64,000 bases of DNA from NCBI RefSeq assembly GCF_018132105.1, contig NZ_JWHL01000006.1:1-64000 (forward strand), given 5' to 3'. Positions 2,499 to 31,796 of the stretch are shown here, in pieces (position 1 is the first letter of the stretch; each line of letters begins with the position of its first letter). The DNA comes from Methanocalculus chunghsingensis (GTDB lineage: Archaea; Halobacteriota; Methanomicrobia; Methanomicrobiales; Methanocorpusculaceae). The notes beneath the pieces are model-generated. The model was not told the DNA's origin. It searched no databases and saw only the letters and a list, made by a program, of their open reading frames with translations. The translations under genes were made by a program, and so were the position numbers.

Positions 2499-3944
2499 AT
2501 GGCAGTCGGAACGACGATCAAAACGATTCAGGATATCATGAGGAAGGATGCGGGTGTCGATGGCGATGCCCAGCGAATCAGCCAGTTGAGCTGGATGCTC
2601 TTCCTGAAGATCTTCGATGATAAAGAGATGGAGTATGAGCTCTTCCAGAAAGGGTACAGGTCACCGATGCCGGATCGCCTCAGGTGGCGGAGCTGGGCTG
2701 CTGATCCGGAGGGGATTACGGGCGAAGCGCTCATGAAGTTCATCGATGATGATCTTTTTCCAACGCTCCGTGACCTCTCTCCCGATGCCGGATCGAATGG
2801 CTCGGCAATCCTGCTCCGTCGGGTCTTTGAGGATTCATACAACTACATGAAGAACGGAACACTGATCCGGCAGGTAGCAAATAAGATCAATGAGATCGAC
2901 TTCAACAAGACCGAGGATCGCCATCTCTTCGGCGAGATATACGAGAAGATCCTCAAAGACCTTCAGAGTGCCGGGAATGCAGGTGAATATTATACACCCC
3001 GTGCCGTTACCCAGTTTATGGTGGATCAGGTGGATCCCAAACTCGGCGAGCAGGTTCTCGATCCCGCCTGCGGAACCGGGGGATTCCTTGCCTGTGCGAT
3101 TGAGCATATCCGGAGGTCCGTGAAGACGGTCGATGACGAGGTTCTCCTCCAGAAATCAATCCACGGTGTCGAGAAGAAACCGATGCCCCATCTCCTCTGC
3201 GTCACGAACATGATGCTTCATGGCATCGATGTTCCGATCCAGATCAAGCATGACAATACCCTCGCCCGGCCGCTGAAGGATTATACGGTTCGGGATCGGG
3301 TGGATGTGATCGTCACGAACCCACCGTTTGGGGGGGTGGAGGAGGACGGGATTGAGACAAATTTCCCGGCATCTTACCAGACACGGGAGACGGCTGATCT
3401 CTTCCTCGTCCTGATCATGCATATCCTGAAAGATGGTGGCAGGGCGGCGATTGTCCTCCCGGATGGAACGCTCTTTGGTGAGGGGGTGAAGAGCAGGATC
3501 AAGGAGAAGCTCCTGACCGAATGCAATCTCCATACGATCATCCGACTCCCGAACGGGGTCTTCGCTCCTTACACCAGTATAAAGACGAATCTGCTCTTCT
3601 TTGAGAAAGGAAAGCCAACCAAAGAGATCTGGTATTACGAGCATACCTATCCCGAGGGCTATAAGTCGTACTCAAAGACAAAACCGATCCGGATCGAGGA
3701 GTTCGATGCTGAGAAGGCATGGTGGACGAACCGGATCGAGAATGAGCATGCATGGCGGGTTCCGGTTGAGCAGGTGATTGAGAACGGGTTCAACCTGGAT
3801 ATCAAAAATCCGAATGTTGCACCTGAAGAGAACGGTGATCCTGTGGAGATACTCCGTGAGTACGAGCGGATACAGGCAGAGGCGGCAGCCACACGCGAGG
3901 CGCTGAAGCGGGAGCTGATGGCGTCCCTTTCAGTAGGGAAGTAA
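2499..3944 (+). CDS. hsdM: Type I DNA methyltransferase M subunit (HsdM)
   Basis: This subunit methylates adenine N6 at the site chosen by HsdS and protects host DNA. An N-terminal HsdM helical domain (IQDIMRKDAGVDGDAQR) leads into the Rossmann methyltransferase with SAM motif DPACGTGGF near residue 195 and catalytic motif IV NPPFGG near 280. I prefer the ATG at 2499 because family members begin close to the motif AVGTTIK and an AAAGGG lies 9 bases upstream. An in-frame ATG at 2481 sits directly against AGAGAGG, which is too close for a ribosome binding site. Length (481 residues) is normal. A 379-base gap separates it from hsdS, unusual for such loci. Confidence 0.93.
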   Translation: MAVGTTIKTIQDIMRKDAGVDGDAQRISQLSWMLFLKIFDDKEMEYELFQKGYRSPMPDRLRWRSWAADPEGITGEALMKFIDDDLFPTLRDLSPDAGSNGSAILLRRVFEDSYNYMKNGTLIRQVANKINEIDFNKTEDRHLFGEIYEKILKDLQSAGNAGEYYTPRAVTQFMVDQVDPKLGEQVLDPACGTGGFLACAIEHIRRSVKTVDDEVLLQKSIHGVEKKPMPHLLCVTNMMLHGIDVPIQIKHDNTLARPLKDYTVRDRVDVIVTNPPFGGVEEDGIETNFPASYQTRETADLFLVLIMHILKDGGRAAIVLPDGTLFGEGVKSRIKEKLLTECNLHTIIRLPNGVFAPYTSIKTNLLFFEKGKPTKEIWYYEHTYPEGYKSYSKTKPIRIEEFDAEKAWWTNRIENEHAWRVPVEQVIENGFNLDIKNPNVAPEENGDPVEILREYERIQAEAAATREALKRELMASLSVGK

Positions 3945-4069
3945 TTCTGGTGGGGATTTTTGATGAGCGAAGAGGTGTCTGATGTTGGATCTGTGCCGGG
4001 GCGGAGTTGGATTTATTTCCTGCCTTTGCATGCTTCTGATCACTGAATCATCTCGAATACAAGTGAATT

Positions 4070-4112
4070 CTATATTTTAGTTGGAAATTAGTTGGATAAA
4101 TGTTGGATAATC
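4070..4112 (+). promoter_or_regulatory. Putative hsdS promoter with three tandem 11-bp repeats
   Basis: An A/T box TATATTTTAG (4071-4080) is followed by three back-to-back 11-mers, GTTGGAAATTA, GTTGGATAAAT and GTTGGATAATC, starting at 4080, 4091 and 4102. In an archaeal promoter transcription would start about 25 bases after the box, inside the repeats. Spacing of 11 bp places the copies on one face of the helix, as expected for a cooperatively bound repressor site. The rest of 3945-4126 holds no gene that I can support. Confidence 0.4.
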
Positions 4113-4126
4113 TGAAGGTTTGAACG

Positions 4127-4327
4127 ATGGAAGAAAGAACATATATTCCCGAATCTGAAAAAGAGGCAAAACCGCTTTACGCCGATGTCCGGAATGGTTG
4201 TACCGGGGGTCTATTGGGGATCGATTGGGGAAATATAGCCCCCATCCCCGGCTGCTTTTGTGAATTAATCAGAATAAAGGCGGGAATCGCATTCTTCGAT
4301 GCGGCTCCGATTGGGGAATTACCATGA
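4127..4327 (+). CDS. Possible small protein upstream of hsdS
   Basis: This 66-codon frame has no recognisable domain. Two features argue for it: GAAGGT sits 7 bases before the ATG, and its stop overlaps the hsdS start as ATGA, the arrangement used for translational coupling. Against it are ordinary composition, no known family, and the chance that this is simply the hsdS leader. The product would have a charged N-terminus, three cysteines (CTGG and CFC) and no membrane segment. It could be a regulator acting through the neighbouring repeats, which is speculation. Confidence 0.3.
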   Translation: MEERTYIPESEKEAKPLYADVRNGCTGGLLGIDWGNIAPIPGCFCELIRIKAGIAFFDAAPIGELP

Positions 4328-6045
4328 TGACAGAGACAACCACACAAGAAACGGATCTTCTCTTCCAACACTTCGCCACCCTCGCCACCGGACCGGATGG
4401 GATAGCCCGGCTGAGGGAATTGATCTTGCAGCTTGCAGTGCAGGGGAAGCTCGGGACGCAGGATCCGGGGGATGAGCCGGCTGGATTTCTGATGGATAGA
4501 ATCAATTTAAAAAAAGCGAGACTCGACATAAAAACAAGGAAAAAAACACAGAATGATTTCCCTCCATTTTCTGATGAAGATTCCCCATTTCATATTCCTA
4601 ATAATTGGATATGGACACAATTAGGTGAACTTTTTGAAATCACATCGAGTAAACGAATTCACGAAAGTGATTGGAAAAGTAGCGGAATTCCATTTTTGCG
4701 AGCGAGAGAGATCGTTTCTTTATTAAAAGGCGAAGTCTTCAGCTCCCCAATCTTTATTTCCGAAGAATTATACGAAAAAGTAAAGCTACAAACCGGAGTA
4801 CCTGAGCCAAACGATATTCTTGTCACTGGCGTTGGAACTGTCGGCATTCCCTACATTGTAACCGGAAAAGAGAAATTCTATTTTAAAGATGGAAATGTTG
4901 TCTGGTTAAAAAATTCATTTTCTATTTACGCAAAATTCATCGAATTGGTGGTAAAATCCCCGTATATTTCTAATGTTATTAATGAAACTCATGGAACAAC
5001 CGTTAAAACATTTACAATAATTAAAGCGAAATCGCTTGTAATCCCCCTCCCCCCTCTCGCCGAACAGCACCGTATCGTCGAAAAAGTTGACCGGCTCATG
5101 GCGCTCTGCGATGAGCTTGAACGACAACAGCAGCAGGAACGTTCAACCTGCCTTCGACTCGGCACCGCGAGCTTTGCGGGGTTGCAGAACGCGGAGAGCC
5201 CGGGAGAGTTCGGGGGGCAGTGGGCGCAGATCTGCGATACATTTGACCTGATGCTGGACTGCCCGGAGAATGTGGCGGTGCTCAGGCAGACGATCCTGCA
5301 CCTGGCGGTGCAGGGGAAGCTCGGGACGCAGAATGAGAGGGATGAGCCTGCGAGTGTGCTTTCAAAAAAAATTCTCGATGAAAAAAAGAAACTTCAAAAA
5401 CAAGGAATTATTTCAAGGTCGCGTTCATTTCCTGAAATAACATCCGAAGAAAAAACATATGCCATACCAAAAAAATGGCTTTGGTTGCGCCTTGATGACA
5501 TTGGACATAATTGGGGGCAGAAAGAGCCAAATAATTCTTTTACTTATATCGATGTTGCTGCCATAGATAATAAGAAAGGGGAGATCGGTGACTATGTTGA
5601 TGTACTATTACCAGACGAAGCACCTTCAAGGGCTCGAAAACTTGTGAGAAAAGGAACTTTGATCTATTCGACAGTTCGCCCGTATCTTTTAAATATCGCA
5701 ATTATTGAAAAAGAGTTCAATCCAGAGCCTATTGTTAGTACGGCATTTGCTGTCTTACATCCATTTGAGGGTATCTCCAATCGATACCTATTCTATTATC
5801 TCCGTTCCAAGCCTTTTATCGCTTACGTGGAGTCACAGATGAAAGGGATGGCATATCCTGCAATTAATGATCAAAAATTCCATATGGGACTTATTCCAGT
5901 TCCACCAACTGCCGAACAGCACCGAATCGTCGAAAAAGTGGATCGGCTTATGGCACTCTGTGATCAGCTTGAAGCGCAGCTGAAGGGGCGGGCAGGGGTG
6001 CAGGAGCGCTTTGCGAAAGCTGTTGTGGGGGGTATTACTCCATAA
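4324..6045 (+). CDS. hsdS: Type I restriction specificity subunit (HsdS)
   Basis: HsdS chooses the two-part DNA target for methylation and cleavage by the complex. The 573-residue protein has the classic two-fold plan: conserved block (LAVQGKLGTQ), target-recognition domain 1 (about residues 60-235), helical spacer (AEQHRIVEKVDRLMALCDEL), a second LAVQGKLGTQ block, recognition domain 2 (about 345-525), and a second helical block. The two recognition domains are much richer in A and T and in lysine, asparagine and isoleucine codons than the conserved blocks, as if acquired separately. The start ATG overlaps the stop of the small upstream frame. It is complete, with no frameshift seen. Confidence 0.93.
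   Translation: MMTETTTQETDLLFQHFATLATGPDGIARLRELILQLAVQGKLGTQDPGDEPAGFLMDRINLKKARLDIKTRKKTQNDFPPFSDEDSPFHIPNNWIWTQLGELFEITSSKRIHESDWKSSGIPFLRAREIVSLLKGEVFSSPIFISEELYEKVKLQTGVPEPNDILVTGVGTVGIPYIVTGKEKFYFKDGNVVWLKNSFSIYAKFIELVVKSPYISNVINETHGTTVKTFTIIKAKSLVIPLPPLAEQHRIVEKVDRLMALCDELERQQQQERSTCLRLGTASFAGLQNAESPGEFGGQWAQICDTFDLMLDCPENVAVLRQTILHLAVQGKLGTQNERDEPASVLSKKILDEKKKLQKQGIISRSRSFPEITSEEKTYAIPKKWLWLRLDDIGHNWGQKEPNNSFTYIDVAAIDNKKGEIGDYVDVLLPDEAPSRARKLVRKGTLIYSTVRPYLLNIAIIEKEFNPEPIVSTAFAVLHPFEGISNRYLFYYLRSKPFIAYVESQMKGMAYPAINDQKFHMGLIPVPPTAEQHRIVEKVDRLMALCDQLEAQLKGRAGVQERFAKAVVGGITP
4438..4461 (+). repeat. 24-bp direct repeat within hsdS, copy 1 (copy 2 at 5308-5331)
   Basis: The 24 bases encoding VQGKLGTQ are identical at 4438-4461 and 5308-5331. 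A second, less perfect repeat pair of about 65 bases encodes the two AEQHRIVEKVDRLMAL helices near 5057-5122 and 5911-5976. Both pairs frame the recognition domains, so recombination between them could swap or delete a domain. Confidence 0.85.
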
Positions 6046-20522: not shown

Positions 20523-21141
20523 TCACCAGCATTTTGAAGCAACCGGGAAATACCCGGAATTTGAAGAGTGTGTAAAATTTCACGGTCATTCATGCCCAGG
20601 TCTTGCGACCGGCTATCGTGCCGCCCTCGCAGCGATGCAGGCGCTCGGTGTCGCCCGCCCCTATGATGAGGAGCTCGTCACCGTCGCAGAGACTGATGCC
20701 TGCGGACTCGATGCGATCCAGTTGGTGACCGGTTGCACTGCAGGAAAGGGGAACCTGATCATCAATGATTATGGGAAGCACGCATTCAGCTTTTATGCCC
20801 GTGAGAAGGGAAAAGGCGTCCGAATTCTCATTAAGAACCGGGATATGCCGGGGAAGGCCGAGCTTGATGGCCTGAGGAAGAAGGTATTTGGAGGTTCTGC
20901 AACCGAAACCGAGCAGAAGCGGTTTTATGAACTGATGGCGGCAGCAACCGATGCACTCCTCTTGATTCCACAGGATGAGTTGTTGACGGTTGTCGAGATC
21001 GCGTATAACCCGCCGCAGAAGGCACGCATCTTTGCCACAGTCACCTGCCCTGACTGCGGGGAGCCTGTTGCTGATGGGAAGATGAGGACGGTTGATGGAA
21101 AGACTGTCTGTATCCCCTGCTCACTTGCATCCAGGCAGTAA
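20506..21141 (+). CDS. FmdE-family protein with C-terminal zinc finger
   Basis: The N-terminal domain carries the FmdE signature FHGHSCPGLATGYRAAL with the later acidic/cysteine element ETDACGLDAIQ; the C-terminus has a CxxC...CxxC zinc ribbon (CPDCG and CIPC). FmdE-like proteins were first noted beside molybdenum formylmethanofuran dehydrogenase and often sit next to metal or oxyanion transporters; their reaction is not settled. The ATG at 20506 with AAGGT upstream is chosen over in-frame starts further back in the ATPase gene. The 17-base overlap with the ATPase gene argues for shared translation and function. Confidence 0.85.
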   Translation: MCETHDHQHFEATGKYPEFEECVKFHGHSCPGLATGYRAALAAMQALGVARPYDEELVTVAETDACGLDAIQLVTGCTAGKGNLIINDYGKHAFSFYAREKGKGVRILIKNRDMPGKAELDGLRKKVFGGSATETEQKRFYELMAAATDALLLIPQDELLTVVEIAYNPPQKARIFATVTCPDCGEPVADGKMRTVDGKTVCIPCSLASRQ

Positions 21142-29691: not shown

Positions 29692-30031
29692 CCCTCTTCA
29701 AATCATTGACTTCTCTTGGATTCGATTGGAAATCCATTGGTATATTCTTCTATCCATGGTCTCGTTCGTTATTTTCGTCAATTTCCACGATATTAGGTTT
29801 TGACGAATCATTTGATCGGTACAATGCAATATTCTCTTCAAAACCGAATTATTTGAGATTTTACATCCTTTTTCCGAATCTTGTTTGGAGACGCTTCATA
29901 CCAACCGAATAACCAAATACATCAGGTATCCCCTGATCTGGAAGGGTGGATATGAAAAGGTATGTCAAAGGGCGATTGTTGCCAGATTGTTTCGTGTAAC
30001 AACCCTATTGACATGACAGGAATGAAGGACT
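29692..30031. other. AT-rich intergenic region before the His-rich protein gene
   Basis: The stretch contains a hairpin ATCAGG/CCTGAT (29921-29937, 5-base loop) and several A/T boxes that could be promoters. A 15-codon frame opens at 29952 but has no support. No gene of normal size is present. Confidence 0.45.
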
Positions 30032-31207
30032 ATGATAAAGAAATTATGTGTACTATTTGTATGTGCTCTCTGTCTCTGCGGCTTTGCATCTGCCCACCCG
30101 CATGACGATGGTGATACTCCGGATGTGAATCTGCCTCCGATTGTACTTGCTGAAGACGGAAGAACGATATCGATCACCCTTGATGATATGGCCCTCTATT
30201 TTGCAGAACTTGATGGCAAAGACAACCCGCATATCGGTTGCTGCATGGTGGTAACCTATCGGGCTTTTGCTGCGGGAATATCCGAAATCTGGGGAGATGG
30301 GATCCCGGAGAGATCAGACATTGAGTTTACGTCCGCTCTCGTCTCCAGAGGTAATGTTCGGTCGGCAAAGTATCTCACCGGCAATTTCAAGGATATGAAT
30401 CCGGCTCATCGCGGGAAGGCCTGGTTCACCGGAGCTGATGGATCATTGATCTCAGATCCAAAGCAGGATGATCTCCAGCACGCATCACGGGAGCGATCTG
30501 CTGATTCGTACCGGTTTACCATGACCCGGATCTCGACCGGTGAATCAGTAACGCTCACATTTGCCGATCATGTCTTTCCGGAAGGATACTTTGAGCTGAG
30601 GAAGAAAGTGGAAGTCGAAAAAACAGCGACTCCCGAGGAGATTCTCAGGTATGCCGAAGAGCATGCGCTTGTGGATGGGCATTTTATTGATAAATCAGAT
30701 GCCTGGCTCTTCAATGAGATCTCAAGCGTCCACCCGGTTGTTGTGGAGCTTGAGATCATCGACCGGAGTACCGGCAAAGTTGTTGCCGATTTCCATTATG
30801 ATCACTGGCATGGAGGGCTCCCGCATATCCATGAAGGCGAGGATATCGAGCTGATGGCACGGTATATCGATGAAAGCGGATCAGTTATTCCGCTCTACCA
30901 TGGAACCCGGAACCCCGGTGCAGCCTATGCGATGTCCGCAAGGATTGCAGACGGGGCTCCGGCAGGATTTGCCCGGGTCTCGGATCACGGGGATCATGTC
31001 CATATCTATGGGGATCATGATGGCGACACCTATGTCGTCTTCCAGCTGATCGACCGTGACACCGGTGCTGTTATCTGGGAATCAGGCAGAATCGAGGTTG
31101 AGGTTGAGGAGGGGCACCTGAACATGAAGATGCTCGCTGCAATCGGTGGAGGATTGGTTCTCCTGATTGGTGCGGGCATTGTGATGATGAAGAGAAGGAA
31201 GGAGTAA
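30032..31207 (+). CDS. Membrane-anchored His-rich surface protein
   Basis: This 391-residue protein has a signal peptide (cleavage expected after FASAHP or nearby) and a C-terminal membrane helix (MLAAIGGGLVLLIGAGIVM) followed by a basic MKRRKE tail, so it is displayed outside and anchored. Three acidic/His clusters suggest metal binding: HPHDDGD at the mature N-terminus, HYDHWHGGLPHIHEGED near 250 and DHGDHVHIYGDHDGD near 320. The segment around GCCMVVTYRAFAAGISEIWG weakly recalls the FmdE fold, but I would not assign it. It starts a run with a cytochrome b-like protein and a Cys-rich lipoprotein, pointing to metal or redox work at the surface. Function unknown. Confidence 0.7.
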   Translation: MIKKLCVLFVCALCLCGFASAHPHDDGDTPDVNLPPIVLAEDGRTISITLDDMALYFAELDGKDNPHIGCCMVVTYRAFAAGISEIWGDGIPERSDIEFTSALVSRGNVRSAKYLTGNFKDMNPAHRGKAWFTGADGSLISDPKQDDLQHASRERSADSYRFTMTRISTGESVTLTFADHVFPEGYFELRKKVEVEKTATPEEILRYAEEHALVDGHFIDKSDAWLFNEISSVHPVVVELEIIDRSTGKVVADFHYDHWHGGLPHIHEGEDIELMARYIDESGSVIPLYHGTRNPGAAYAMSARIADGAPAGFARVSDHGDHVHIYGDHDGDTYVVFQLIDRDTGAVIWESGRIEVEVEEGHLNMKMLAAIGGGLVLLIGAGIVMMKRRKE

Positions 31208-31243
31208 AGCCCTTCCTTCCGCCTTGAATCTCTCTTGAGTACC

Positions 31244-31516
31244 ATGAAACGGAGATCTCTTCTCTATGTCGTCAATATGGGGATGCTCATCTCATTCATC
31301 CTCTGTGCTCTGACAGGGATAGTAAAATGGCCGGGGCTCATCCCGAAGCTTGGGCTCACATATCAGACCCTGCCGTTTCCTACGATTACGCTTATCCATG
31401 ACTGGAGCGGGCTTGTACTCTGTATTCTGGCTGCCATCCATCTTGGTATGCACTGGAACTGGATGATTATCATGACAAAAAGAATGTTCCTCGAACGGAG
31501 GCGATCTGATGAATAG
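31244..31516 (+). CDS. Small two-helix membrane protein (DUF4405/cytochrome b-like)
   Basis: The product has about 90 residues and two membrane helices: LLYVVNMGMLISFILCALTG and WSGLVLCILAAIHLGMHWNW. Histidines in LIHDWSG and in IHLGMHW are spaced as in DUF4405 and cytochrome b561-type haem-binding helices, so b-type haem between two protomers is plausible. The ATG at 31244 is preferred over an in-frame TTG at 31235. The stop overlaps the lipoprotein start by 8 bases and the surface protein ends 36 bases upstream, so the three genes should be one transcript. Confidence 0.75.
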   Translation: MKRRSLLYVVNMGMLISFILCALTGIVKWPGLIPKLGLTYQTLPFPTITLIHDWSGLVLCILAAIHLGMHWNWMIIMTKRMFLERRRSDE

Positions 31517-31796
31517 TACTATGCTGACCGCAGTCCGGCTGATGCTTCTGGCTGGTCTCTTCTGTGGCGTCTCCGGATGCGTTGATGAACAACCAGGAGG
31601 GGACCGACATCTCATTCCCCCGGAAGAGGGTGACTCGATCCAGCAAAGTGAGATGACCCCTGATGAAGCCGCCGCCGCCCTTGCCGGTGCCTGCCCGTTT
31701 GGGAAGATCTGCTGTGGTGGTCGTGGTGACTGTTCTTTATTTGCCGATCTGAATGGTGATGGGTGTTGTGATCTCGGTCTCCGTGATGATCCATAG
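31509..31796 (+). CDS. Cys-rich lipoprotein
   Basis: This 95-residue precursor has a signal and lipobox (GVSGC), a short acidic linker, and a C-terminal motif CPFGKICCGGRGDC followed by DLNGDGCCDLG. The pattern C-P-x-G with D-x-N-G-D-G-x-C-D resembles small domains found beside DUF4405-type proteins that may bind a metal or Fe-S cluster, and the NGDG part looks like a calcium loop. This is inference from pattern. It would be tethered outside, next to the cytochrome b-like protein, and could take electrons from it. Confidence 0.7.
   Translation: MNSTMLTAVRLMLLAGLFCGVSGCVDEQPGGDRHLIPPEEGDSIQQSEMTPDEAAAALAGACPFGKICCGGRGDCSLFADLNGDGCCDLGLRDDP

Follow-up and report, generated by a model that had tools for sequence, protein, structure and literature searches.

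A three-gene surface cassette of Methanomicrobiales and its probable place in a DtxR-type iron regulon

The three genes described here lie in a 64,000-nucleotide stretch of a Methanocalculus chunghsingensis contig (NZ_JWHL01000006.1, positions 1 to 64,000), which is referred to below as the window, and all are encoded on its forward strand, as are the features within them. Gene A (30032-31207, +) is an open reading frame of 391 amino acids that specifies a secreted, C-terminally anchored protein of two domains, termed A_N and A_C. Gene B (31244-31516, +) encodes a two-helix DUF4405 protein of 90 amino acids when read from the ATG at 31244, a TTG at 31235 being also possible as a start, and gene C (31509-31796, +) encodes a lipoprotein of 95 amino acids. 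A gap of 36 bases separates A from B and an overlap of 8 bases joins B to C, exactly as a first-pass annotation of this DNA had stated. Upstream of the cassette are fdhA and fdhB, and downstream, on the opposite strand, is an alpha/beta hydrolase gene. The cassette is regarded as a unit of its own because 408 bases separate fdhB from A and because it stands in a different setting in a Methanocalculus MAG (G005, locus L081), which belongs to the same genus as the genome of the window (G000). A search of Rfam gave no matches. The dN/dS values of A_N, A_C, B and C against the sister genome, 0.11-0.28, indicate that all four are under constraint.

Protein A carries the N-terminal hydrophobic signal, the C-terminal anchor and the three His/Asp-rich stretches that had been noticed at first reading. 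The predicted signal peptide (30032-30094, +; residues 1-21, ending ...FASA/H) would leave His22 at the N-terminus of the mature protein. The putative transmembrane anchor (31133-31195, +; residues 368-388) is recognised by a GG_III-CTERM match, with an E value of 6e-4 that is just under the cut-off of the model, and by a helix at 365-390 in the predicted full-length structure, a model (pLDDT 60) that was uninformative as a whole, as was its search against the PDB. Single-sequence searches with A likewise gave nothing significant in Pfam, NCBIfam or the PDB. The His/Asp-rich stretches are HPHDDGD at residues 22-28, FHYDHWHGGLPHIHEGED at 254-271 and DHGDHVHIYGDHDGD at 318-332. Composition alone gives the clustering little weight: the maximum of 5 His in 16 residues is matched by 1202 of 20000 shuffles. 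It is conservation that speaks for the clusters. Six histidines of the second and third stretches are invariant in 5/5 A_C sequences; within the first, only the predicted N-terminal His22 is conserved, being nearly invariant in 16 sequences. A histidine-brace role for this residue is only an idea.

The first domain, A_N (30095-30739, +; residues 22-236), is FmdE-like, an assignment that draws on Pfam matches, hhalign and an AF2 model of a relative. Residues 1-236 of A match a 260-residue protein that is complete by itself in other cassettes. PF02663 (FmdE) matches 9 of the 16 A_N members, with a best E value of 1.1e-5, and the A_N family aligns with 20 genuine FmdE sequences over 145 columns (hhalign, 97.6%, E 3.9e-12); protein A of the window, searched alone against Pfam, gave no FmdE match. 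An intact A_N relative is modelled with a pLDDT of 91.7, and a structure search with modelled A_N found no significant PDB match, the weak matches including thioredoxin-like folds. The likeness to FmdE extends over the whole domain, including the YRA helix, the TG turn and the C-terminal LRkKV...ELF. In contrast to FmdE, however, A_N is secreted and membrane-anchored, and its relatives are linked to feo rather than to formylmethanofuran dehydrogenase.

The metal site differs as well. FmdE binds Zn/Ni through His15, His17, Cys19 and Cys55, and its crystals held these metals (PMC2954224). In the A_N family the FHGHxC motif becomes YHG...PDxCxCCxC, such that only the equivalents of His15 (the His of YHG) and Cys19 are present, along with a cysteine-rich segment, and the Cys55 ligand is absent. 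The copy in the window (altered site at 30200-30361, +, from alignments) is without most of what remains: His57 is replaced by Phe, Cys69 by Gly and His110 by Arg, while Cys72 and Cys74 are lost. Cys71 is kept, and His67 and Cys70 are new, other residues standing there in most relatives. The four FmdE ligands are thus not matched in this protein, which has Phe57, His67, Gly69 and Gly107 in their places. On its sequence A_N is accordingly classed as FmdE-like and not as an FmdE, and the loss of most family ligands means that the domain in the window may now be reduced to a scaffold. The dN/dS values against G007, 0.26 for A_N and 0.11 for A_C, indicate that neither domain is decaying freely. 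A canonical FmdE domain lies 9 kb upstream of the cassette (20578-20985, 150.7 bits, within an open frame of 244 codons), so that the genome holds both a normal FmdE and a secreted, diverged protein of the FmdE type.

The second domain, A_C (30740-31126, +; residues 237-365), is His-rich and bears its six invariant histidines in the motifs HxDHWHG and HGDHVH. It was found only in G000, G007 and G002, and it is fused to A only in the genome of the window and one sister, the other six cassettes being without it. In G002 a stand-alone A_C gene directly follows fdhB (L026), and the joining of A_N and A_C in the gene of the window therefore appears to be recent. The His clusters, which had been put forward as a feature of the cassette, do not hold up as such, since two of the three lie in this domain and are absent from six of 8 cassettes. 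A two-copy relative of A_C is found between cobalamin genes and cbiM, a gene for Co/Ni uptake (L027, 8843-9871; L028, 7597-8610), and is itself a candidate extracytoplasmic Co/Ni-binding protein.

The relatives of A_N have neighbours of another kind. Without B or C, they occur in feo clusters in three Methanoculleus-type genomes, in two Chloroflexota and in 10/10 contigs of one family. At the Methanoculleus-type loci L022, L042 and L043, A_N is flanked by FeoB-like genes, accompanied in two of them by a DtxR-type regulator, which at L042 is confirmed as such by Pfam. The Chloroflexota loci L086 and L087 both have feo, with Pfam-confirmed FeoA, FeoB_N, FeoB_C and Fe_dep_repress at L087. In family f10 of the phylum, all ten contigs examined (L162-L171) carry, in this order, feoA, feoB, a 150-residue membrane protein where called, and A_N. 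No feo adjoins A_N at L044, L046, L047 or L048. With feo beside the relatives of one half and cbiM beside a relative of the other, both halves of A have relatives among metal-uptake genes, by independent lines of evidence.

Upstream of A is an operator-like element of 46 bases (29869-29914, +), of the form TTTTTCCGAA-N4/5-TTyGG ... CCGAAt, that lies 117 bases before the start codon. The element is kept upstream of 7/8 cassettes, across genera with otherwise unalike flanks, and the distance from the end of its first inverted repeat to the start codon varies from 66 to 159 bases; in the eighth cassette, that of G058, the site is weak (11.0 bits). When a matrix of the seven cassette sites was rebuilt without each genus in turn, the site of the omitted genus came top of its own locus each time, at 12 to 40 bits. 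The full seven-site matrix, in which feo sites have no part, picks out eight more sites scoring over 16 bits across 770 kb and zero in the controls, these being single-base shuffles, for which real genome sequence is the better control. Six of the eight, from three genera, precede feo operons or feoA itself (three Methanoculleus-type, G058, G003 and G005; 17-32 bits), one precedes an ABC transporter, and one has no clear gene. A palindrome at -111, ATCAGG-N5-CCTGAT, was dropped for lack of conservation in the sister genome, and MsvR was set aside as regulator because its TTCGN7-9CGAA site (PMC3729527) mismatches the element in order and spacing.

Within the 1.16 of 2.13 Mb of the window's own genome that the scan covered, the best non-cassette site given by the cassette-only matrix (22.7 bits, the next being 12.7 on the same contig stretch) precedes by 41 bases a gene of the DtxR type, in whose product both domains of an iron-dependent repressor are recognised. 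This site (L266, 3549-3594, -) is on contig C1 at about 68.5 kb, just beyond the window, and suggests that the repressor gene is autoregulated. A second, weaker site is seen about 520 bases further up. The feo units of the same genome are on contig C4, the cassette being on C1. They score 29.0 and 13.6 bits with a matrix widened by feo sites and 6.9 and 4.6 with the cassette-only matrix, so that support from its own feo alone depends on the widened matrix. In a methanogen DtxR and FeoAB change together with the iron source (PMC8516115). An operator common to the cassette, to feo and to the repressor gene, along with the occurrence of A_N relatives in feo operons, leads to the reading of the cassette as part of a DtxR-type iron regulon, although the cassette holds no feo gene of its own and feo lies on another contig. 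This is the firmest conclusion of the analysis and, as a prediction from DNA motifs, is held to be very probable. Surface metal handling by the encoded proteins is also considered probable.

The metal need not be iron. Protein A might instead bind haem, a corrinoid or nickel, with B and C releasing or loading it, as part of an acquisition system for haem, other metal-tetrapyrroles or Ni/Co. The A_C relative between the cobalamin genes and CbiM, the Zn/Ni of the FmdE crystals (PMC2954224) and the haem auxotrophy suspected in the order (PMC8351635) would all suit such a role, which is nonetheless judged very unlikely given the association of the A_N relatives and of the operator with ferrous-iron genes and the lack of A_C in the other six cassettes.

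That the three genes form one unit, as the first-pass annotation had supposed, is upheld by their distribution. A_N-B-C is contiguous on one strand in 8 genomes of four Methanomicrobiales genera (G000, G007, G005, G050, G060, G058, G112 and G115), and the order is kept in 8/8 genomes that have both A_N and C, with intergenic distances of no more than about 290 bases. G112 is Methanogenium cariaci and G115 is a Methanogenium, whilst G050 and G060 are probably Methanofollis and G058 Methanoplanus. Protein A has matches in 17/232 genomes of the order, 16 of the 17 via A_N, and C has strong matches in 15/232; DUF4405 is present in 115/232. Wherever C occurs in the order it adjoins a B gene, and C was not found beyond the Methanomicrobiales in 286 genomes of the phylum. 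A single genus (Methanospirillum-type) supplies seven more genomes that have B-C without A, among them G198, which we take to be Methanospirillum hungatei JF-1, and B-C may hence act independently of A. Scattered homologues, or loss of the histidines, had been named as grounds for giving up the idea of a single system. The genes proved to be linked and the haem-type histidines of B are conserved, but the His clusters are not, outside the A_C family.

Protein B matches PF14358 (DUF4405) with an E value of 7.8e-12 and 46 bits against a cut-off of 26.7. Its candidate haem ligands, His52 and His66 (31397-31441, +), stand 14 residues apart in helix 2 and are invariant in 27/27 relatives aligned, which agrees with the initial description of a two-helix protein with haem-type histidine spacing. 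His70 is conserved only in the cassettes and three other relatives. A spacing of 14 residues between histidines in one helix is that of the two-haem b cytochromes. In vitro binding of haem b has been demonstrated for one DUF4405 protein and for FezC, which is related to it, and the DUF4405 family is kin to cytochromes of iron-storage organelles (PMC11334425). B resembles these flavinylation- and ferrosome-associated proteins in scoring above the Pfam cut-off and in keeping the central histidines. It differs in having only two helices, for which a dimer would be needed, in being paired with a tetra-cysteine lipoprotein, and in that no apbE or flavinylated partner was seen by eye among the open reading frames of 27-35 kb.

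Elsewhere in the Methanomicrobiales, short DUF4405 genes adjoin a YedY-type molybdopterin oxidoreductase (L118, 5745-6437; L115, L117, L121 and others), a pairing that recalls MsrPQ, though its membrane partner is unusually small. Like MsrPQ/YedYZ, the cassette pairs an extracytoplasmic protein with a small membrane subunit of the haem type, and B-C might by analogy be a general outward redox relay that repairs thiols or sulfoxides of surface proteins or keeps these proteins reduced, A being one client among others, induced under iron limitation. The B-C pairs without A in Methanospirillum-type genomes would fit this proposal as well. No YedY-type subunit lies beside the cassette, however, where the neighbours are fdhAB and the alpha/beta hydrolase gene and the only molybdopterin protein is an FdhA of the cytoplasmic type. 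In the B tree, moreover, the DUF4405 genes linked to YedY cluster separately (99/99 support), in a subgroup different from that of B. There is also a split (98/97) between B of the eight cassettes and B of the seven B-C pairs, the deepest joins of the tree being weak. With the iron operator sitting on the cassette in addition, a repair relay is thought to be decidedly unlikely.

Protein C was correctly recognised at the outset as a lipoprotein with Cys/Asp motifs. Its lipobox cysteine, Cys24, is present in the cassettes and absent from the C proteins of the B-C pairs. The C-terminal motif (31692-31772, +), CPFGxxC...C...DxNxDGxCD, has four Cys and three Asp that are invariant in 14 sequences. 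Single-sequence searches of C gave nothing significant in Pfam, NCBIfam or the PDB. To judge by its residues, the DxNxDGxCD segment could be a calcium-binding, disulfide-stabilised loop that is not redox-active, or it could help to shape a redox site.

No Methanomicrobiales genome reaches the cut-off for the haem synthase AhbD, which fails as proof of a haem supply and leaves that supply uncertain. A survey of methanogens lists no known haem-b electron carriers and finds AhbABCD incomplete in the Methanomicrobiales (PMC8351635). At L226 (5206-8461) of the window's own genome, an AhbB gene scoring above the cut-off is flanked by two radical SAM genes whose likeness to NirJ, AhbC and AhbD falls short of every cut-off, a possible variant haem-type pathway. 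It is conceivable, then, that the cassette captures metal under iron control with no redox chemistry at all, A buffering the metal and handing it to Feo while B and C act as anchor and assembly partner, with B haem-less or its haem unused. Apart from the haem question, such a role would be in keeping with A_N adjoining feo without B or C in many genomes. The invariance of His52 and His66 in every relative aligned argues against it, as does the constant pairing of C with a B gene, and it is regarded as unlikely.

On the preferred reading, to which a probability of roughly one half is attached, the cassette is a module of the cell surface under iron control, capturing metal outside the membrane and supplying Feo with Fe(II) by reducing or releasing it; surface capture, reduction and delivery to Feo are what we infer from membership of the iron regulon together with the anatomy of the proteins. 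A DtxR-type repressor would sense cytoplasmic Fe(II) and, judging from the shared operator, free the element before A when iron is scarce. Anchored A, whose domains are recognised by sequence, might then hold metal through the FmdE-like fold and, in this lineage, A_C as well. B, probably as a dimer with two stacked haems, would move electrons across the membrane, in a presumed direction and from a presumed donor, and the tetra-cysteine lipoprotein C may relay electrons or metal between B and A. Fe(II) would finally enter via the Feo encoded elsewhere, on contig C4. Reduction is the weak step, because the electron donor is presumed, the haem supply is uncertain and C may not be redox-active, and reductive electron transfer by B and C is given slightly less than even odds. 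The shared metal or electron role proposed by the first-pass annotation has thus gained strong backing for metal, through feo beside A_N, CbiM beside A_C and the operator, and electron transfer across the membrane is something that we still infer. A more specific form of the module, a dedicated metal reductase that acts outside the cell and has a b-type cytochrome at its core, in which B draws electrons from the cell and C and A deliver them to Fe(III) or an iron-sulfide mineral under DtxR control so as to feed Feo, is a tentative and rather doubtful proposal.

The families of the parts of A, B and C are known, and it is the assembly and its iron control that look new; the literature searched makes no mention of A_N in feo operons, of the cassette or of the operator. 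The cassette is rated as an iron-uptake accessory of unusual make-up. It bears on how methanogens obtain iron from minerals, contact-dependent pyrite reduction being known and its mechanism not (PMC8630215). If the reductase proposal were true, a metal reductase with a b-type cytochrome would occur in methanogens that are counted among those without cytochromes. One member of DUF4405 has been shown to bind haem b, and the family is moreover found in about half of the genomes of an order counted as without complete haem synthesis. The cassette and its iron-type operator together offer three definite genes and a control site for study.

Several minor observations were made besides. One protein from another class of the phylum (L172, 3737-5686, -) joins an A_N-like domain to an apparent extracytoplasmic CbiX-type chelatase, so identified by eye. 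Operator-like sites with no clear iron gene occur at L023 (12087, +) and L274 (10930, +), the latter preceding a response-regulator-like gene. A further unit with the iron operator upstream consists of a nicotianamine-synthase-like methyltransferase fused to a FeoA domain and followed by a FeoB gene (L194, 8001-8909, -; L193, about 3070-4600), and is possibly a metallophore-linked iron operon.
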